Part shown: positions 1-37,191 of the stretch, piece after piece | How the letters are laid out: each line of letters begins with the position of its first letter | How positions within the stretch are numbered: position 1 is the first letter of the stretch | Assembly (NCBI GenBank): GCA_030267965.1 | Contig: BRYA01000162.1 | Coordinates: 5,829 to 69,828, forward strand | Reading direction: 5' to 3' | Source of the DNA: Triparma columacea | Taxonomy: Eukaryota > Sar > Bolidophyceae > Parmales > Triparmaceae | DNA length: 64,000 nucleotides | Notes under the pieces: model-generated | Databases searched by the model: none | The model's input: the letters and a program-made list of their open reading frames with translations, nothing else | Told to the model about the DNA's origin: nothing | Made by a program: the position numbers and the translations under genes

Positions 1-3000
1 GTTTAGTCCTGTCGTGTCTTCATACACACTCCAGCATATATTCTTTGCTCCAATTTCCTCCTTTTTCCAGACGCAGCTTGTCCTGAATTCTCTGTTTGAG
101 AATCCAGGAATGCCTAAATTTCTCTCACTCAAATAGAGTTGTGAGTGGTTGTTTAGCTTTTTAATCTCCTGCTTCACAACTCTCTTGTTTTTCAACCCAG
201 CTAGTTTCTCCCTCGAGTCCTTAGTGAATTCAAATGCTACACACTCTTCAAGAGAAGCGTCTATAACTGTCTCACCTACACCTGAAACAAGACTCTGGCC
301 TTCAATGTGCACTGACTTCATCTTGACCCCTGGGTCAGGACTCCTGAGATCTTCAAAGTGCTTACTATTTATGCACTTCTCGTAGAATTCCTTTCCCTTC
401 CTGATTGCATCCTTCTCCTCCTCAGAGTAATCTTGGCGCTCATTCTTGATGATGTTGGCAAGAGAGACCAGTGCAGCTTTATCAACCTCATCATCTTGCT
501 TGAAAGTTTCTTGAATCTCGTGTAAGATTTGCAGTTGCTTTGGAATTTTTTTCTCGACAACTTTTAGGGGGATGAAACCGCCAAAATCCAAGTGCTGTTT
601 GAAATCAAGCTTACATTGCGCTATCCCTCCTTCTTTGCTGATGTTGGTAGCTATAAGCAGTCCTCTGCCTTCTGCTCTGACTACATTTTTGATTTCTCCA
701 CCATAATCAATCTCATCGTCGCTTGGCCAAGAGCCAACAGAGATAATTTCATTTTCTTTCTTTTTCCATAGATTCCTGAAGACAAATTCTCTATTATTGA
801 TCAGCAAAGGAAGCTTCTTGACTGAGGCAACCAGCTTCTCATTTCTCCTTTGCACTCCCTTTCTTACTTCAAGCCGGGCAAGATCGCCAGCCTGGAAACC
901 AAGAGTATTCCTCTCCCTGCCACAGTACTCAAAGTACCAAGCTGCTGCCTCCTCTGCTGTGCAGTCTGCATGTCCGTAAGCTCTCCCGAGTGCAATGCTC
1001 CTTTGCCCTCTCTCCTGCTGCCTGTACTTGATCTCCATCTTCACTCCTTCATAAGGTGACTCAAGAGGCCCCCACCCTTCTTCATCCTCCCCACCAAAGA
1101 GCTCCTCCAACTCCCCAAACAACTTATTCTGGTCCTCCTCCAACTCAACCCCCTCCCTCATCCTCTCCACTAAGGCCCCCCTGACCTCAGCATCAACCTC
1201 CTTCCCGTTCCTTCTGAACTTCTCCTGCAACCTGTTGGCCTCAATAAGCTCATTCCTTGCAAGGTAGTCAATTGCTTTGTCCATCACTGCCTTTGGAAGA
1301 AGGCCAGTAAATTTCAGATTAAATGTTTGAACGCGTGTGACTCTACAAACATTTGGAGCAATCTCATTGAAGAAGTAGACACCTTTAGTCTCTGCTAGCA
1401 CAAATCCTTCCTTACTGAGGTCCTTGAAGCCTCCTCCAGGGCACTCTGTCAGTGGCACAAAAGCTAACATGTATGAAGTCCGCCCATTCTCAAGTTTGAC
1501 TTCCTTCCAAGAGAACCAGGATTCGAAGAGACGGTCTTTTGCTGGGTTAGGCATGTGTAATCCTTGGTGTTGATGGTGACTTCTAGTTCCATCAACATTT
1601 TGCTTAAAAACCCTAGGCAGATTGCCATTCTCCTTCAGATGCTTTCTTGCATAAGCGTAAGTCTCGCCTAAACTTAGCTCAGCCAGCATACCCTCTGCTG
1701 ACTTGTCCACAGTGACCCCATAGGCTCCCCACACGTTGTCCCCCTTTCTCCACAAGAACTTGTCCACCCCCTCCTTCAATGTCCCCTTGACTCTCTTCCC
1801 CTTTGTGAGAAATTCCTTCTCTAGCCTCCCAACCCTCTCCAACATTGCCTCCTCCTCTATTGTCAGAGGCGGTGCCCTTGGCATGACCTTCTCCACAAAG
1901 TGTCTTTTCCTCCTCTCATCAATGACAGAAGGCTGTCTGAACACATCCATTACTTCATTGAGAATTCCCTTCAATGAGATGTAGGTAGACTTGGTGTCGC
2001 TTTTCATGTCACTTTTGAGACTAGGGTGCGCAGCGCCCACACTCTTGAAACTAGGGCGCGCACTCTTGAAACTTGGGCGTGCACTCTTTGAGCTTTTGTT
2101 TGTGCTAATGCCAACTTCTGATTTCATCTCTGTTGCTCTCTCCTCTGCCTTGAGAGTTCCCACCATGGTGACTGCAGTTTGTCCAAACTCGAAATCTGTG
2201 AAGCTGAGCTCGCCCTTAATGACACCTCGCTTGACAGTCTTGGTATTTATTGACGCTAGAATTTCGACAAGCATCGCAGTTGCCTCATCAGAAAGGTCAT
2301 CCTCATCAAGGGGTGCCAACTCCATAATGTTCGTCGATTTGTCAGGAGATACGACTTTGACGTCAAGGAGAAATTCGACAAACTTATTCCAGCTGCTGTA
2401 GTGCTGCCAGTAGACGAGTCTGTGAACGACTCTTTCCTTTTCGTCATACTCCTGGAGAGTCTTCCTTCGGAATTTGCCCTGCTGGCAATCGGTGAGGAGA
2501 AAGTCAATGATCTTGTCGCGCTCATCGTGGAAGACACCAGCAAGCTCCATAACCTTCACATCGACACCATTAGAGTTGTCAATGAGGCCTTCAACGGCTC
2601 CTCTCTCCTCAAGAAGCTTGACAAGTTTGCCTTGTTCGAGACCAAGAGCTGCATAATTGATATCTACCGGGCCATGTATTGCAGAGGGTGTGTGATTGGA
2701 GCTGGAGAGGGGCTGCGGGGGGTCTTTATTCTTGACGGTGTTGTCAAGATCTGCTCTCATGGACTGAGCGGCAGTAGCGTGGCTGACAGTCGCAAGGCCG
2801 ACTGGCGTGCGGTCGGGAGTTGCGCACCCAACAGCAGGCGGTATAGCGCTTAGATTGCTCTCGCCCGCTATTCCATCGTTTAAGGGATTGTCAGAAATTT
2901 CGGCGTTGACATTTTCATATCCAGGTTGAAGATGAGGATGGCCAGAAATTTCTAGGGGTAGTTTTGGGGGAATTTTTGGTGAAAAAGGGTCAAAAAAAGG

Positions 3001-4239
3001 CAAGAATCTGAAACTCCCTCACAACGACTTCCAAGTCTCCCCTAAACAATCAAAATACCCTACTCTTCGTCTACAAGATATTGCAAACTTACCTCCTCTA
3101 GCATCCTCGTAAGTGCTTTTCGAGACTGCGAAGGGGACAACATTTTTGTAAAAGTGAGAAAAAACTACAAAGTTTCAACGCGCCCTCCCGCGACTCTTCA
3201 GCTCTCCCCTAGGGTATTAAAATGTATTTTTCTTTGCCGCCTCTCAACGCATAACTCACCTCGTCCCGCATCCTCGTGGCCGTTTTTAGAGTCTGCGGTT
3301 ATGGCGATTATGGTGTTTGTTAGTCAACATGAAGAGATTTCAACGCGTGCTCCTCGTTTCTGTGTACTGTAGCATATCAAGCGCCCCATGCGGTCGCCGG
3401 AGACGGAACCCATGCGGTTGCCGCAGAAGCGCCCCATGCGGTCGCCGCAGACGGAACCCATGCGGTCGCCGCAGAAGGAACCCACGCGGTCGCCGGAGAC
3501 GGATCCCATGCGGTCGCCGCAGACCGGCGCGCGCGCGCGTGCGCCGCGGCCGCCGCCCGTTGAGCTTGACGCCGACGGCCAGGCCCTCCGCGAACGGCTC
3601 CGCGCGTTCCGCACGCAGGCGGTGAGAAAAAACTGCAAAGTTTCAACACGTCCTCCCGCGACTCTCCTGCTCTCTCCTAGAGTATAAATATGTGATTTCT
3701 CTCTTCCGGCTCTCAGCGCTCAACTCACCTCGTCCGGCGTCCTCGAGAGAAATTTCAGATGCTGCAGAGGAAACGACAAAGAGGGGGAAAGTGAGCAAAA
3801 GTGGCAAACTTCATCTTGTCCTCCGACACATCTCTGGCCCTCTACTGAAGTATAAAAATGTTCTTTTCCTCCTCGAGCGCCCGACGCTTACTCACCTCGT
3901 CTGGCTTCCCCATGATCATTTTCAGAGTCTGTCGGGTGTTGGCGATAATGATGTTTTTTTGAGATTTTTGATAACATTTCAACACGCTCCTCAACCATCT
4001 CTCCTATGTTCACAGATATAGATGATTGGCGCTCTTCCAACTTCACCCCCGACGCAAAACTCACCTTGTCCGGCGTCTTCATGAGGCCTATCAACACCCG
4101 ATGTTGAGATAATTGTCCTGTCACTGCCTATATTAGGTTCGCAGGGTCGATTCTCAGACACTGAGGCACTGACTTGTGGCATATTAGTCTCCTCTACGCC
4201 CTCTTCGCTCCCCCCTCGGGGTTCATTCTCCACGTCCAT
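1..4239 (-). CDS. START-like multidomain protein, 3' end outside window
   Basis: Minus-strand exons: 4239..4065, four 33-nt microexons (3928..3896, 3761..3729, 3292..3260, 3125..3093), then one exon from 2951 that stays open to base 1. All junctions are GT-AG and phase 1. The big exon (about 980 residues) starts with a charged region, then shows repeated lipid-transfer-like (START-fold) modules: around 1950-1300 (WGAYGVTVDKS, then RVQTFNLKFTG), around 1080-600 (GPLESPYEGVKM, with AWYFEYCGRER) and a third beginning near 320 (DPGVKMKSV). Repeated START-like proteins are common in algae, but the function here is unknown. The start is uncertain: the frame is open back to an ATG at 4476, and a donor-like site near 4675 suggests a 5' UTR exon. 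The family call rests on motif resemblance only; the open frame itself is certain. Confidence 0.7.
3093..4087 (-). repeat. tandem ~167-bp repeat carrying 33-nt microexons
   Basis: A unit of about 167 bp is repeated. Each copy ends in an 11-codon exon flanked by an AG acceptor and a GTGAG/GTAAG donor. Copies lie at 3928..3896, 3761..3729, 3292..3260 and 3125..3093; the degenerate first copy is fused to the end of exon 1 (4087..4065). Introns are 134-141 nt, except the one holding the GC-rich insert (436 nt). Phase-1 translations are DSENDHGEARR, ASEISLEDAGR, DSKNGHEDAGR and VSKSTYEDARG. The Ala codon varies synonymously (GCC, GCC, GCG, GCT), which supports this frame. The introns are also similar to one another, so exon and intron were duplicated together. 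Confidence 0.8.
3377..3621. repeat. GC-rich 24-bp minisatellite insert in an intron
   Basis: Roughly six imperfect 24-bp copies (core CCCATGCGGTCGCCGCAGA) are followed by a GC-rich tail ending just before GTGAGA at 3622. The block interrupts one 167-bp repeat unit, making that intron about 302 bp longer than its siblings. Base composition is far richer in GC than the surrounding intron. On the plus strand the tail reads as a protein-like stretch (LDADGQALRERLRAF) that ends at a donor-like GTGAGA, so it may be a captured exon piece. No function is assigned. Confidence 0.7.
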
Positions 4240-4479
4240 GTGCGGTTGCTCAACTCGTGTTGTATCTTGGAATCTGAGCGGTGGGTGTACGGATCGGTGA
4301 AGGTTAGAAGAGTGTATAAGCTTGACGATTTTGAAAGTCAATACGAAAACGACAGGCCCGGCGTTGAGACCACCATTGGGACGTTTGACCAACTGCAGAG
4401 TGTCGGAGTGTAGAGACCATGGGAAATCTCTCGGCTCCCTGGTCATTTCGGTGACATCTTGTGACCGCCCCGTCATCCG

Positions 4480-5464
4480 ATGTAGTTAGATCCTGGAAAT
4501 CTTGAAGTAAATCAACGTTGAGGCCATACAGGAGATGTCAGATCCTGGTTGTGAAATCCAACATCGGGAGAGAGGATCGTCTTAAGAAAAATTGTTTGGG
4601 ACTCATGCCCATTTTCGCCCATTTTGTGCGGAGGTACATCGTCAAGCCCATCTCTGGTACGATTAAAGCTACTTACCCAGGGACGCTCAGTGTGAGGTGA
4701 AGTTCTCTGCTGTTTATGCCCAACGAAGCCCTCCCTGAAATGACCGAAATCTGGTCTGCTCCGGAATTGTTTTTTAGTCTAATTCGAAGCTAATATTCAG
4801 CAATTCCTAAAACGCTTCTCCCAGAATCCTAAAAACGGGTAAGCGGATACCGTACAACCCTACCTACACGTCCCGGCCCCCAGAATTTCCAAAAGGTTAG
4901 TTGAGGGTTTAGGAAGGAGGGTGGGTTTGTTGGAAAGCTTCCTCCTCTCACGTTTGCTTATTATAACTTATTATAATTTTAGAACGAGACTTATACATTC
5001 TCTTTTTTTTAAATGCCTTCTTACATGTCGGCATAACGTCCTATTTCTATGTCCTTCCCCTCCTCTCCCTTCTTCCATGACCTGGGTGATTAAGATATGA
5101 AGAAGAACGTGCAAAGCGTGAATATTACGGCTTTTTGCTAATAATGTACTTAGTTTTTATCCACTTACGCCCCTGACACTGCACGCCTCTCATTCTAGGT
5201 TCAGGAGTGGCATTTGGTTTTTCTCCAATCTCCAGAACCAATGATGCCAAGTGCACTTGTTAACTTTGCCAAAAGTCCTTCATTAGTAAAAACAAAGCCC
5301 CATCTCTATATTTAGTCGCCATAGATACCCCCTATCTACTCAATTTCCCTAATACCTATCTCCGATCCCGTTAATCAATCCCGTAACCTCTCCACCACCA
5401 GTTAGAAAATTCTAACATCATCAGGAAGTTCTCGAAGGAGCAGTCCCTCACCCAAAAAACCATC
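4480..5464. other. intergenic region, no gene recognised
   Basis: No coherent coding sequence was found. A donor-like site on the minus strand near 4675 (CCCTGG then GTAAGT) may end an untranslated first exon of the START-like gene. The right-hand part should contain the EngA promoter, but no clear TATA box is visible. Confidence 0.4.
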
Positions 5465-7741
5465 ATGAGAAGCATCAAAGCCTTTCCGTGCTTCGCTTGT
5501 GCAATTTTTGTCTTCCTTTCACTCTCCGTGAGTGCATTTAAGTTCCCCTTCACGATCATGCCAACAAGAAATGATCCACATTCTGCTCTTTACTCTCTCG
5601 AGGAGCCCCCATCATCCCCTGCCTCGTCCCCGGCGTTCTCCTCCCCTCTCCCCTCATCTCGATCCCCTAAATCCCAGCTCCCTCTGCGTGTCTACCACGC
5701 CAGTGGCCCTCGCAAGAAGCCAACTATTGCTGTAATTGGTCGTCCTAACGTTGGAAAGTCTGCCCTCGTTAACCGCCTCGCCGGGACCCAGTCCGGCGGA
5801 GCCATCGTCGCGGACGAGTCCGGGATAACCAGGGACAGGACGTACAGGGTGGGGGAGTTCATGAACAAGAAGTTCCAGATTGTTGACACTGGGGGGCTGG
5901 TGTTTGATGACAAGGAGGTGAGATTGCGGAGGACGGGAGGAAAGTGGTGTGGCGACGATACTAGGGGGGCACCCCGGCCCTCTCACCTCGCAATCTTAAC
6001 CCCCCCCCTCCTTTCTGTCGTCGCTGCTCTCCTCTCAATCACAGGGACTCTTCATGGCTCAAATCAAGGAGCAGGCCATGATTGCCATTTCGGAGTCCTC
6101 CGCGGTGGTCCTCGTGGCGGACGGGATGACGGGCCTCACCTCGATGGACTTGGACCTTGCTGAATTTTTGAGGAGGGAGGTGAGGATCGACAATAGCAGT
6201 TGAAGCAGCTCCCGCTCGTAGCGCCGCTCCTGCTCGTTGCGTTGATCCTGCTCGTTGCGCCGCTCCTCTCCTCGATCGCTCGCCTTTGTAATCTAACTAA
6301 CGCAACCCTCTCCACGGCTCGCTTCGCTTGCCGGCGCAGGTTCTCAAGAGGGGCATCCCCGTTCGTGTCGCAGTGAACAAGTGCGAGTCTGAGAAGACTG
6401 GGCAAGCTTCCGCCGCTGAGTTCTGGAAGCTGGGCCTCGGCGAGCCCAACGCCGTGAGCGCCATCCACGGGGTCGGGACGGCGGAGCTGTTGGAGGGGGT
6501 CTTCGAGGATATCGAGAGGCTGGAGGGGGCGGGGAAGCAGGGGGTTCAGGTTGAAGAGAGGGACAAGGAGGTGGAAGATTTCCTCATGGATTACGGGATC
6601 GGAGGGGACGATGCGAAGGGCGACGATGACGGCTTCAACCAACTCTCAAAGAGGGAGCAGCGGAAGGTCGCCCGTATGAAGGACAGGTGAGAACGGCGAT
6701 GCACACAATTCTTACAACCTCCGCCTAACCCTCATGGCAACTAACCCTCTTCGGTCGTCGCCCCATTCGTCCTCTCCCCTCTTTCCTCTCCCCCGCAGCC
6801 TCGACGAAGAGTACGACCTCGACGATGAGATGATCAACATTGCAATCATAGGTCGTCCCAACGTCGGAAAGTCCAGCCTCCTGAACAGAATATTCGGGTC
6901 CAACAGGGCTATCGTGTCCGACATCGCCGGGACGACCCGCGACTCAATCGACGCCATAATGGAGCGACCCTCCGGGTCCGAAGACGTTCCCCCCACCCTC
7001 TACCGCTTCATTGACACCGCCGGCATCCGCAAGAAGGGTAAGGTAGACTTTGGTCCAGAGTTCTTCATGGTCAACCGGGCCCTCAGGGCCATCAGGAGGT
7101 CGGACGTCGTGCTCCTAGTCCTTGACGCCACGAAGGGGGTAAGCGAGCAGGACAGGATCCTGGCCCAGAAGATCTCGGACGACGGTCGCGCCTGCGTTAT
7201 CGTCTGCAACAAGTGGGACGCTGTCGTTGACAAGGACGAGTCCACCTACGACAAGTCGGTAAAGTACGTCAGGGAGGAGCTCCCCCAGGTCCGGTGGGCC
7301 CCCATCCTCTTCGTTTCAGCCGAGAGCGGCCAGCGGGTCCAGAAGCTTTACTCTGCGATAGACGAGGCCGTGGAGGCACACAGGAAGAGGTTCACGACGG
7401 CAACGCTCAACGAGGTACTGAGGGACGCGGTGTCTTGGCAGCCCCCACCGGCGAAGAGGTCGGGGGCGGCGGCTAAGATATACTACTGCAACCAGGTGTC
7501 CTCCAGACCCCCCACCGTCGTGGTGTTCTGCTCCAGCCCGGAGTTGGTGAACGATAACTACAAGAGGTACCTCGACAGGAAGTTCAGGGAGAGCCTAACG
7601 GGTTGGACTTCCACTCCTGTGAGGTGGGTCTTCAGGGGGAGGAGGGTTAGGGACGTGTGGAGGGCAGGACAGGGGATGATGGGGGGGGATCCGGGGGACG
7701 GGGGGTCAGGGAACAACTACCCTAAACCTCACGCTGGGTAA
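5465..7741 (+). CDS. engA: Der/EngA-type GTPase, plastid-targeted
   Basis: Exons 5465..5917, 6045..6179, 6340..6686 and 6799..7741 give 625 residues. Der/EngA is a tandem GTPase for assembly of the large subunit of bacterial-type ribosomes. The N-terminus is a hydrophobic signal peptide ending in VSAFKFP, like the ASAFAP motif of proteins entering secondary plastids, then a Ser/Pro-rich linker. GTPase 1: [14 protein letters not shown]4 NKCE. GTPase 2: [21 protein letters not shown]-terminal KH-like domain follows ([12 protein letters not shown] to WVFRGRRV). Introns start GTGAG; intron 2 carries the GCTCGCTTCGC motif before its acceptor. Targeting to the plastid rather than the mitochondrion is inferred from the bipartite leader. 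Confidence 0.93.
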
Positions 7742-13408: not shown

Positions 13409-15112
13409 TTAGAGAAACTCCAGAATAACTCTCCACAAAACTTTCGGGATCTTCTCACGTGCCTCACTTTCCCTTAGCGGTGGGGCTTCAACTCCGTCAG
13501 TTCGCTTCCGCTTCCTAGCCGATCTCCTGGGTGGATCCTCCACGTGATCCCAGGTTCCCTTGAGGCACAGCAGAGCGTTGACGCGTTCGATCACAGCGAT
13601 CTTGCGGTGCCACCTATAATGGAGAAGGTCCGAGACAGTCGGCATGTTCTTATCAGCAGCGGCAGTGATTAGGGCAGTGCAGTTCGAGAAGCAGTCTTCA
13701 CCGATGGAAACATCAGGAGATAGAATGAGTTTCGTCAGGGCGGAGCAATTGCTGAAAGCTTCATTGCTAATCGTCGTCACTCCATCTGGGATGGTGATGG
13801 CCGTGAGGGAGGAGCATCCCCAGAAGGCGCGTTTGCCAATCGTTGTCACTCCGTCCGGAATGGTGATGGCTGTGAGGGAGGAGCATCGGTTGAAGGTGGA
13901 ATTGCCGATTGTCGTCACTCCGTCCGGGATTGTGATGGCCGTGAGGGAGGAGCATCCGTAGAAGGTGTCATCGGCAATCGACGTCACTCCGTCCGGGATG
14001 GTGATGGCCGTGAGGGAGGAGCATCTACTGAAGGCGTAATTGCCGATTGTCGTCACTCCGTCCGGGATTGTGATGGCCGTGAGGGAGGAGCATCCGTAGA
14101 AGGTGTCATCGGCAATCGACGTCACTCCGTCCGGGATGGTGATGGCCGTGAGGGAGGAGCATGTAGAGAAGGCGCGTTTGCCAATCGTTGTCACTCCGTC
14201 AGGGATGGTGATGGCCGTGAGGGAGGAGCATTCGTAGAAGGTGCATTCGCTAATCGTTGTCACTCCGTCCGGGATGGTGATGGCTGTGAGGGAGGAGCAT
14301 TCGCGGAAGGCTTCATCGCCAATTGTCGTCACTCCGTCAGGGATGGTGATGGCTGCGAGGGAGGAGCATTCTGTGAAGGTGCTGTTGCCAATTGTAGTCA
14401 CTCCGTCCGGGATGGTGATGGCTGTGAGGGAGGAGCATCCGTGGAAGGCGTAAATGCCAATCGTTGTCACTCCGTCGGGGATTGTGATGGCCGTGAGGGA
14501 GGAGCATCCCCAGAAGGCGTAATCGCTAATCGTTGTCACTCCGTCCGGGATGGTGATGGCCGTGAGGGAGGAGCATCCATTGAAGGCATCTTCGTCAATT
14601 ATTGTCACTCCGTCCGGGATGGTGATGGCCGTGAGGGAGGAGCATCCGTCGAAGGCGCGTACGCCAATTGTCATCACTCCTTCCGGGATTGTCATGGCTG
14701 CGAGGGAGAAGCATTCTACGAAGGCGTAACTGCCAATCATCGTCACAGAGTCCGGGATTGTGATGGCTGCGAGGGAGGAGCATCCTTCGAAGGCGCCCTC
14801 GGCAATCGTCGTCACTCCTTCCGGGATGGTGATGGCCGTGAGGGAGGAGCATTCAAAGAAGGCTTCATCGCCAATTATCGTCACTCCGTCCGGGATTGTG
14901 ATGGCCGTGAGGGAGGAGCATCCCTTGAAGGCGCCCTTGCCAATTGTCGTCACTCCATCTGGGATGGTAATGGCCGTGAGGGAGGAGCATCCGTAGAAGG
15001 TTTCATCGGCAATCGACGTCACTCCTTCTACGAAAGTTACTTCTGTGAGCTCACGATCGTCTTTGAAGCTCCCTGTCTCGTCTGTGCCATAGTATACTGC
15101 TGTTTGGGGCAT
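13409..15112 (-). CDS. BspA-type leucine-rich repeat protein (LRR_5), paralogue A
   Basis: Single-exon gene of 567 residues, mostly a tandem 23-residue repeat (69 bp) with core CSSLTAITIPDGVTTIG; about 18 copies. This is the BspA/TpLRR (LRR_5) form, a curved solenoid used for binding. After the repeats come a capping segment (ALTKLILSPDVSIGEDCF), a conserved C-terminal block (HYRWHRKIAVIERVNALL) and a basic stretch RRSARKRKR that could be a nuclear signal. No signal peptide or membrane segment is seen, unlike bacterial BspA surface proteins. A TATAAAA motif lies on the coding strand near 15195. Paralogue B at 35179-37191 shares the C-terminal 200 bp almost exactly. Ligand and role are unknown. 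Confidence 0.9.
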   Translation of the reverse strand: MPQTAVYYGTDETGSFKDDRELTEVTFVEGVTSIADETFYGCSSLTAITIPDGVTTIGKGAFKGCSSLTAITIPDGVTIIGDEAFFECSSLTAITIPEGVTTIAEGAFEGCSSLAAITIPDSVTMIGSYAFVECFSLAAMTIPEGVMTIGVRAFDGCSSLTAITIPDGVTIIDEDAFNGCSSLTAITIPDGVTTISDYAFWGCSSLTAITIPDGVTTIGIYAFHGCSSLTAITIPDGVTTIGNSTFTECSSLAAITIPDGVTTIGDEAFRECSSLTAITIPDGVTTISECTFYECSSLTAITIPDGVTTIGKRAFSTCSSLTAITIPDGVTSIADDTFYGCSSLTAITIPDGVTTIGNYAFSRCSSLTAITIPDGVTSIADDTFYGCSSLTAITIPDGVTTIGNSTFNRCSSLTAITIPDGVTTIGKRAFWGCSSLTAITIPDGVTTISNEAFSNCSALTKLILSPDVSIGEDCFSNCTALITAAADKNMPTVSDLLHYRWHRKIAVIERVNALLCLKGTWDHVEDPPRRSARKRKRTDGVEAPPLRESEAREKIPKVLWRVILEFL

Positions 15113-35178: not shown

Positions 35179-37191
35179 TCACAGAAACTCCAGAATTACT
35201 CTCCACAAAACTTTCGGGATCTTCTCACGTGCCTCACTTTCCCTTAGCGGTGGGGCTTCAACTCCGTCAGTTCGCTTCCGCTTCCTAGCCGATCTCCTGG
35301 GTGGATCCTCCACGTGATCCCAGGTTCCCTTGAGGCACAGCAGAGCGTTGACGCGTTCCGTCACAGCGATTTTGCGGTGCCACCTATAATGGAGGAGGTC
35401 CTCGACAGTGGAAATATTTTGATCCGCCGCGGCAGCGATTAGGGCGGTGCAGTCCAAGAAGCAGTTATCACCGATGGAGACAGCGGGAGATAGACTGAGT
35501 TTCGTCAGGGCGGAGCAATCCCTGAAGGCGGCAAAGCCAATCGACGTCACTGAGTCCGGGATGGTGACGGCCGTGAGGGAGGAGCAGTAGGAGAAGGCAT
35601 AACTGCCAATCTCTGTCACTCCGTCCGGGATGGTGATGGCAGTGAGGGAGGAGCAACTGTGGAAGGCGCCATCGCCAATCGTCGTCACTGTGTCCGGGAT
35701 TGTGATGGCCGTGAGGGAGGAGCAATCTCTGAAGGCGTCTTCGCCAATTATCGTCACTCCGTCTGGGATGATGACGGCCGTGAGGGAGGAGCATCCAGAG
35801 AAGGCGAAATCACCAATCTCTGTCATTCCGTCCGGGATGGTGATGGCCGTGAGGGAGGAGCAGTCTTCGAAAGCATTACTGTCAATCGTTGTCACTGAGT
35901 CCGGGATTGTGATGGCCGTGAGGGAGGAGCATCCTTCGAAGGCGGCACGGCCAATCGACGTCACTCCATCTGGGATTGTGATGGTCGTGAGTGAAGACCA
36001 ATAGCAGAAGGCGCGTTCGCCAATCATTGTCACTCCGTCCGAGATGGTGATGGCCGTGAGGGAGGAGCATTCGTAGAAGGCGTGCAAGTGAATCGGATGG
36101 ATGGTAATGGCCGTGAGAGAGGAGCATCCCTCGAAGGCCCAGTCGCAAATCTCCGTCACTCCGTCCGGGATGGTGATGGCTGTGAGAGAGGAGCATTCGT
36201 AGAAGGCATCTTTGCCAATCATCGTCGCTGTGTCCGGGATTGTGATGGCCGTGAGGGAGGAGCATCCGTCGAAGGCGTTTTCGCTTATCATTGTCACTCC
36301 GTCCGGGATGGTGATGGCCGTGAGGGAGGAGCATCCAGAGAAGGCGAAATCACCAATCTCTGTCATTCCGTCCGGGATGGTGATGGCCGTGAGAGAGGAG
36401 CATCCTCTGAAGGCATCTTTGCCAATCGTCGTCACTCCGTCTGGGATTATGATGGCTGTGAGGGAGGAGCATCCGTAGAAGGCGCCCTTGCCAATTGTCG
36501 TCACTCCGTCCGGGATTGTGATGGCTGTGAGGGAGGAGCATCCCTCGAATGCGTCCTCGCCAATTGTCGTCACTCCGTCAGGGATGGTGATGGCCGTGAG
36601 GGAGGAGCATCCACTGAAGGCGCTATTGCCAATCATTGTCACTCCAACTGGGATGGTGATGGCCGTGAGGGAGGAGCATCCCCAGAAGGCGTCATTGCCA
36701 ATCTTCATCACTCCGTCCGGAATTGTGATGGCCGTGAGGGAGGAGCATTCCTGGAAGGCTTCATCGTGAATCATTCTCACTGAGTCCGGGATGGTGATGG
36801 CCGTGAGGGAGGAGCATCCAGCGAAGGCGCCATTGCCAATTGTTGTCACTCCGTCCGGGATTGTGATGGACGTGAGGGAGGAGCATTTGTAGAAGGCATC
36901 ATTGCCAATCATCGTCACTCCGTCCGGGATGGTGATGGCCGTGAGGGAGGAGCATCTGGAGAAGGCGCCCTTGCCAATCGACGTCACTCCTTGTGCAAAA
37001 GTCACTTCTGTGAGATCACGATTACCTCTGAAGCTCTCTGTTCCGGAGTATACTGCTGTTTTGGGAAGGGAAGAGTCCCCATCATCTAGATTGTCATAGT
37101 CACCACCATAGTCATCACTATAGTCATCACTATACTCATCACCATCGTCATCACTAGAGTCATCACCATAAGTAAAGTCTAATTCACTCAT
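35179..37191 (-). CDS. BspA-type leucine-rich repeat protein (LRR_5), paralogue B
   Basis: Single exon, 670 residues. The N-terminus is Asp/Tyr-rich (DEYSDDYSDDYGGDYDNLDD), absent from paralogue A. Then come about 23 repeats of 23 residues with core CSSLTAITIPDGVTTIG. One copy near 36065-36110 is shortened (ITIHPIHLHAFYECSSL). The cap (LSLSPAVSIGDNCFLDC) and the C-terminal block (HYRWHRKIAVTERVNALL, RRSARKRKR) match paralogue A. A TATAAAAG motif lies about 20-30 bp before the ATG on the coding strand. The near-identical C-terminal DNA and 5' flank show recent duplication; repeat number differs, as expected from unequal exchange. Confidence 0.9.
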   Translation of the reverse strand: MSELDFTYGDDSSDDDGDEYSDDYSDDYGGDYDNLDDGDSSLPKTAVYSGTESFRGNRDLTEVTFAQGVTSIGKGAFSRCSSLTAITIPDGVTMIGNDAFYKCSSLTSITIPDGVTTIGNGAFAGCSSLTAITIPDSVRMIHDEAFQECSSLTAITIPDGVMKIGNDAFWGCSSLTAITIPVGVTMIGNSAFSGCSSLTAITIPDGVTTIGEDAFEGCSSLTAITIPDGVTTIGKGAFYGCSSLTAIIIPDGVTTIGKDAFRGCSSLTAITIPDGMTEIGDFAFSGCSSLTAITIPDGVTMISENAFDGCSSLTAITIPDTATMIGKDAFYECSSLTAITIPDGVTEICDWAFEGCSSLTAITIHPIHLHAFYECSSLTAITISDGVTMIGERAFCYWSSLTTITIPDGVTSIGRAAFEGCSSLTAITIPDSVTTIDSNAFEDCSSLTAITIPDGMTEIGDFAFSGCSSLTAVIIPDGVTIIGEDAFRDCSSLTAITIPDTVTTIGDGAFHSCSSLTAITIPDGVTEIGSYAFSYCSSLTAVTIPDSVTSIGFAAFRDCSALTKLSLSPAVSIGDNCFLDCTALIAAAADQNISTVEDLLHYRWHRKIAVTERVNALLCLKGTWDHVEDPPRRSARKRKRTDGVEAPPLRESEAREKIPKVLWRVILEFL

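Follow-up and report, generated by a model that had tools for sequence, protein, structure and literature searches.

According to the available parts of two reports (PMC10526429, PMC4350168), the micro-exon genes (MEGs) of schistosomes are multigene families built on tandem, very small exons, most of which are symmetric and multiples of three in length. The same parts describe a coding region that lies mostly in the microexons, an N-terminal signal peptide, and a structure that is hard for automatic annotation. Schistosoma VAL-6, as described in the accessible portion of one of these reports (PMC4350168), combines a conventional gene structure with a run of tiny symmetrical exons, for which an origin by recombination has been proposed. 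A search of the open-licence literature found no paper on tandem microexon duplication in algae.

In vertebrates, the gene for fast troponin T has short N-terminal cassette exons that give rise to a variable acidic segment; it is a single muscle gene, it is not subtelomeric, and its regulated splicing is established. Subtelomeric multigene families, such as those of trypanosomes and Plasmodium, consist of many related copies near telomeres that are diversified by recombination.

The gene described here was found in a stretch of 64,000 nucleotides from Triparma columacea (contig BRYA01000162.1 of assembly GCA_030267965.1, positions 5,829 to 69,828 of the forward strand), referred to below as the window. 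It is one copy of a large multigene family of this species.

Exon layout of the window copy

The gene is read on the minus strand. Exon 1 (4065..4239) encodes MDVENEPRGG...GVDRPHEDAGQ and ends in phase 1; its start and end both recur in paralogues carrying this type of exon 1. Four microexons of 33 nt follow on the same strand, each with its own acceptor and donor and each in phase 1-1: microexon 1 (3896..3928; DSENDHGEARR, type A1), microexon 2 (3729..3761; ASEISLEDAGR, type C), microexon 3 (3260..3292; DSKNGHEDAGR, type A) and microexon 4 (3093..3125; VSKSTYEDARG, type D). The trinucleotide CAG stands before every one of them, and GTGAGT (three cases) or GTAAGT (one case) comes directly after. 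The main coding exon (1..2951, minus strand) starts with the residues EISGHPHLQPG, its acceptor at 2951 reading AG followed by AAATTT, and it remains open up to the window edge; its paralogues are probably of a START/XK-related family. The 44 cassette residues of the window copy compare with about 983 codons of the main exon, still open at the window edge.

A preliminary description of the window, made from its letters, had proposed four 33-nt exons with their own splice sites, all in phase 1-1 and encoding variants of an 11-residue cassette, and the minus-strand reading bears this out. It had also noted a fifth, degenerate copy at the end of exon 1, which is indeed present (GVDRPHEDAGQ, to 4065) and whose likeness extends into the start of the intron, as well as synonymous variation of an Ala codon, found here as GCC, GCC, GCG and GCT. 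The 167-bp repeat that it assigned to the array exists inside the two outer microexon pairs, but the middle spacing is 469 bp. This departure is due to the 436-nt intron (3293..3728, minus strand), which belongs to the long intron class of the family and contains a GC-rich 24/48-bp minisatellite (3379..3524, located by repeat analysis of the window). In order, the introns of the window copy measure 136, 134, 436, 134 and 141 nt. Folding of the RNA of the 436-nt intron gave a z of 0.48, with no surplus structure.

Other features of the window include two arrays of a 69-bp (23-codon) repeat, with 18 copies at 13754-15025 and 22 at 35503-36990, which we take to resemble leucine-rich repeat genes. 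An open frame on the plus strand (5387-6163), in divergent orientation, contains a GTPase-like stretch and is presumably an EngA/Der-type GTPase.

Coding evidence across the gene family

The genome searched is a 37.85 Mb draft assembly of 789 contigs, some of which end inside family genes. With window positions 2900-4250 as the query, the search of this genome (best 40 of 197 candidates scored) gave 118 matches, which were sorted by eye into 40 loci, and 30 of the 40 were read in sequence. A cassette profile that included 25-nt flanks and set no splice-site requirement gave 198 places at E <= 1e-3; it was seeded with intact cassettes, and strongly decayed copies could escape it. Of these places, 165 are cassettes visible together with both junctions, 15 are full exon-1 ends and 18 are partial matches, the last being 13 more exon-1 ends, one donor-only match in the array of locus L031, and four acceptor-only matches (L011, at a contig end, and L017, L031 and L033). 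The exon end given by the profile was 6 nt early in 16 units, and there the donor was shifted to the GT 6 nt further on.

A 35-place pattern for type-A cassettes, with up to three mismatches, occurred at 347 places in the genome and a pattern for the main-exon start at 48; the controls (for type A, the reversed pattern) gave 0 in both cases. Extrapolation (347 places at 3.07 per fetched locus) puts the family at about 113 loci, a rough estimate because fetching had favoured the best-matching loci. Spliced models were obtained from 29 loci, without a single stop, and 26 of them reach the main exon. The models of L011, L015 and L036 are cut before it, and the piece of L033 was too short, with no start found.

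An AG acceptor and a GT donor flank all 165 cassettes of the 30 loci, although the AG count might have followed from the sorting itself, matches without an aligned AG having been classed as exon-1 ends. The exon-1 ends set aside in this way come first in their locus in 15 of 15 cases and read as exon-1 ends, with no decayed cassette among them. Cassette lengths are 33 nt (135), 45 nt (28) and 39 nt (2), all divisible by three and in phase 1-1, and none of the 165 contains an in-phase stop. The splice sites are near consensus, with GTGAGT or GTAAGT donors at 159 of 165 cassettes and CAG acceptors at 161 of 165. The earlier view of these as symmetric microexons under coding constraint is thus upheld across the loci read, where AG, GT, a length in threes and freedom from stops are kept 165 times out of 165. 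The modelled introns (n = 182) range from 112 to 506 nt and obey no length rule (64, 54 and 64 by length modulo 3), and their retention would bring in a stop in 173 of 182 cases.

Substitution patterns are less uniform. For type A (89 cassettes), the frequency-weighted dN/dS is 0.29 in phase versus 0.98 and 1.36 off phase. In types B and D, dN/dS is higher in the coding phase than in one of the off phases; in type A1 its in-phase value is 1.05. Among distinct variants, each counted once, 37 of 119 are synonymous where 31.8 would be expected, a weak excess (P = 0.10); the lack of stops, 0 where 4.8 would be expected, is significant (P = 0.003). The donor-side intron varies more than codon positions 1 and 2 in types A, B, C and D (P from 0.008 to 0.00008), with no clear difference in type A1 (P 0.09). 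Greater variability at codon position 3 than at positions 1 and 2 reaches significance in type A1 alone, which is small (P = 0.03), and falls short of it in A (0.06), B and C (both 0.14) and D (0.55). As dN/dS is clear for type A only and the synonymous excess is weak, the claim that cassettes are coding rests on frame, splice sites and fusions.

Fusions are found at both ends of the arrays. In L013 and L021, a 45-nt-type cassette runs on without an intron from an upstream coding stretch whose first residues are MEGEVEAD or MEGEVEED. The stretch is like that of relatives such as P0003-P0005, and the in-frame junction of these chimeric 5′ ends lies inside the acceptor tract of the cassette. The last exon begins with a cassette in L017 and L033 (ATETSHEDAR, ATETSHENAR), and with a partial cassette, DSEYGH, in L031. 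This last locus also carries, in the middle of its array, a symmetric exon of 195 nt (gene-sense 2443-2637) that keeps the frame; its acceptor and start are like a main-exon start and its end is an exon-1 end, the source of the donor-only match. Judged from the assembled genome, the in-frame fusions and the 195-nt chimera are the strongest evidence that the cassettes would be translated in the proposed phase, and equally that units recombine with the frame preserved.

These data bear on whether the arrays might be non-coding, that is, tandem duplications inside an intron in which part of exon 1 with its intron, splice site included, was copied and stays untranslated. The shared sequence at the end of exon 1, with its likeness running on into the intron, would be expected of such an origin, and the weakness of the synonymous excess among distinct variants also points that way. 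Against it, no cassette of the 165 shows decay of splice sites, length or frame, and the fusions tie cassettes in frame to coding exons on either side. Pseudo-exons are very unlikely because five loci have in-frame fusions and one of the arrays contains a chimeric symmetric exon, and untranslated duplication is accordingly given hardly any weight.

An artefact of assembly, in which array lengths or some of the loci would be chimeras of collapsed near-identical copies, is also highly improbable. Several contig ends of the 789-contig draft do lie within genes, but the arrays recur in 30 loci, 138 of the 165 cassettes are distinct at the nucleotide level, and positions are ordered and frames open throughout. 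Assembly error could alter single counts, not the phenomenon.

Array variation and chromosome ends

Type A cassettes are DSENGHEDAGR-like, type B are VSKSKSSHEDAGQDR-like and mostly of 45 nt, type C are ASEMSHEDAGR-like, and type D are VSRSSHEDARR-like, with all 24 of the type D cassettes standing last in their array. First exons are of at least three kinds (MDVENEPRGG, MDTENES.. and MADSE.. types), to which the MEGEVEAD fusion is added. Uncut loci have 3-11 cassettes, numbers that the draft assembly may miscount at single loci, and the contig-cut L011 has 2. The exon duplication proposed from the window copy is supported, with arrays of 3-11 related cassettes across gene copies, and the proposed change in linker length and charge is seen between copies, with 33-137 cassette residues in uncut loci (22-137 overall) and a cassette net charge per locus of -2 to -18.

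The 182 introns fall into two classes: 122 are shorter than 200 nt and all lack a minisatellite, and 60 are longer, of which 59 contain one. The lone exception among the long introns is the 463-nt stretch of L031 that really contains the 195-nt exon. Nearest neighbours among type-A cassettes share their position class in 53 cases out of 100 (mean 32.2 and maximum 52 in 2000 shuffles) and their locus in 12 out of 100 (shuffle mean 3.0, shuffle maximum 11). Such a pattern fits local duplication plus positional descent and exchange between loci.

Members of the family are present on 17 contig ends that have a terminal TTAGGG array (C2, C29, C34, C52, C70, C92, C105, C106, C118, C122, C126, C158, C269, C314, C340, C410 and C427), at a distance of about 2.6-14.5 kb, and all are transcribed toward the telomere; at the ends of C34 and C92 the main-exon start alone was seen, and the right-hand contig ends were checked. 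Among the matches listed for the type-A pattern, all 38 minus-strand places lie within 13.3 kb of the contig start. Counted over contigs C1 to C188 there are 43 telomeric ends, and at least 11 of these are among the 17 family-bearing ends, a lower bound as the array lists are partial. Many ends with a telomere thus display no array of the family, which counts against a simple rule of placement. No TTAGGG array is listed, among contigs C1 to C188, for the contig of the window itself (C161), the right end of which stops within a copy of the family gene.

Some contigs carry TTAGGG arrays at both ends: C70 (L047, L048; 75,484 bases), C71 (L049; 84,296 bases), C75 (L050; 67,733 bases) and C364 (L051; 64,824 bases). 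These four are apparent telomere-to-telomere chromosomes of just 65-84 kb. Counted by eye, 40 of the first 188 contigs have at least one array of 54 nt or more, and very small chromosomes may number in the hundreds in T. columacea. For six of its eight assemblies, the available part of the Parmales genome paper gives N50 values of 51.7-83.2 kb, and neither 'telomer' nor 'chromosome' occurs in its main text as available (PMC10328945). The open-licence literature yielded no paper on Triparma telomeres and chromosomes.

In the assembly as it stands, the form of the exons is demonstrably kept, the arrays differ from copy to copy, and those copies seen at telomere-bearing contig ends face the telomere. 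The probable explanation, in our judgement, is a large, often telomere-proximal family with a linker of symmetric microexons, in which recombination is the main source of variation and most cassettes are included. The linker, N-terminal and for the most part acidic, would be encoded by a phase 1-1 microexon array and would precede a START-like/XK-related protein. Chromosome ends would gain, lose and swap exon-intron units by unequal exchange and gene conversion with one another, and phase 1-1 would leave every product of exchange in frame. Recombination between copies is preferred because arrays differ strongly among copies and the splice sites are near consensus.

Combinatorial alternative splicing, the view taken in the preliminary description, with variable subsets of cassettes giving many linker isoforms per gene as in the schistosome MEGs, is a possible but rather unlikely source of the diversity. 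Every cassette read is symmetric, and any subset would keep the frame; the types differ in charge and length; the minisatellites, confined to the long introns (59/60 versus 0/122), could affect exon choice; and alternative splicing is described for MEGs with small symmetric exons in the available part of PMC4350168. Phase alone, however, is no evidence for skipping, because duplicates need a symmetric phase even if they are always included, and symmetry is expected of any duplicated exon that survives. The near-consensus donors (159/165) and acceptors (161/165) also speak against such a device, as does the lack of extra structure in the long intron of the window.

Given splice sites close to consensus, and introns that are short in two thirds of cases, most cassettes are probably present in the mRNA; if so, diversity would come chiefly from which gene copy is used. 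The arrays would tolerate the skipping of cassettes, and further isoforms may arise in this way. The likely effect, which is the weakest step of this account, would be a flexible spacer of varied length and charge placed before a lipid-binding module.

The protein product and comparison with known systems

No Pfam match was found for the main frame of the window. Among four paralogues scanned with Pfam, P0003 passes both START (PF01852; 24.1, cut-off 22) and XK-related (PF09815; 29.5, cut-off 24.8), P0002 passes XK-related only (25.0), and P0001 and P0010 are under both cut-offs. The START-like part that had been placed after the array is thus supported in one of four paralogues but not by the window frame. 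Structure prediction for the 984-residue piece of the window with 12 relatives gave a mean pLDDT of 31, which is unusable, and did not confirm the START fold.

Eight of the 12 relatives of the main open frame are T. columacea proteins and four come from ENA or JGI. Relatives also occur in other Triparma species, at 28-37% identity; a START domain is precomputed for several of them, and none of the other-Triparma proteins returned by the searches contains a cassette word. The MMETSP transcripts P0040, P0043 and P0051, relatives at 34-40% identity, contain neither cassette words nor EISGH. When residues 1-290 of a spliced model were used as a protein query, only P0001 and P0002 of T. columacea were returned (7992 candidates scored). 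Ten short cassette words were matched in P0001 only among 79 returned proteins (about 8000 best candidates scored per search), and the main-exon word EISGH occurs also in P0014, P0041 and P0046 of this set. By eye, P0015 has a shortened type-A start, DSKNG, that continues into main-exon residues.

Comparison of P0001 (TrCOL_g13771) with locus L010 over three parts (25, 11 and 84 residues) shows identity in each. The deposited model begins within an intron and holds two of the four microexons of L010, a case showing that automatic annotation can overlook such exons. According to the available part of the genome paper, the published T. columacea gene models were built from protein hints alone (PMC10328945).

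Exon shuffling at chromosome ends, in which dozens to about 100 genes, many of them facing a telomere, swap symmetric exon-intron cassettes between chromosomes, compounded by combinatorial splicing, might generate very many START/XK-related linker variants, a tentative proposal with the odds against it. If true, it would be a micro-exon-gene-like diversification in a photosynthetic alga that arose independently of flatworms. The family is a natural experiment in exon duplication, with many paralogous arrays of 3-11 microexons in one genome and the phase kept throughout the cassettes read, and the natural fusions within its arrays expose the reading frame. Two questions become testable: whether organisms other than animals make combinatorial use of tandem symmetric microexons, and whether exon number can be generated by recombination at chromosome ends.

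The closest known systems are the schistosome micro-exon genes, especially VAL-6, and the T. columacea family is not a member of them. Like MEGs, it has tandem, very small exons, here of 33, 39 or 45 nt and phase 1-1 in 165 of 165 cases; unlike MEGs, the array accounts for little of a long protein, and it is because the microexons hold only a small share of the coding region that the family is not counted as a MEG. A signal peptide of the MEG kind is spoken against by the starts of the two commonest first exons, MDVENEPRGG and MDTENES.., which by eye are hydrophilic and acidic. The hosts of MEGs belong to a different phylum, and the likeness is one of exon design. With fast troponin T the family shares short cassettes that give a variable acidic N-terminal segment, and with subtelomeric multigene families the many related copies close to telomeres. 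It differs from the latter in that the varying unit is a phase-keeping exon-intron cassette, in a free-living alga, with no antigenic role implied. The nearest likeness is to VAL-6, in which a conventional gene part is likewise joined to a run of very small symmetric exons; VAL-6 is a single gene of another family, whereas in T. columacea this design recurs across a large family whose copies often face a telomere and whose cassette types are shuffled.
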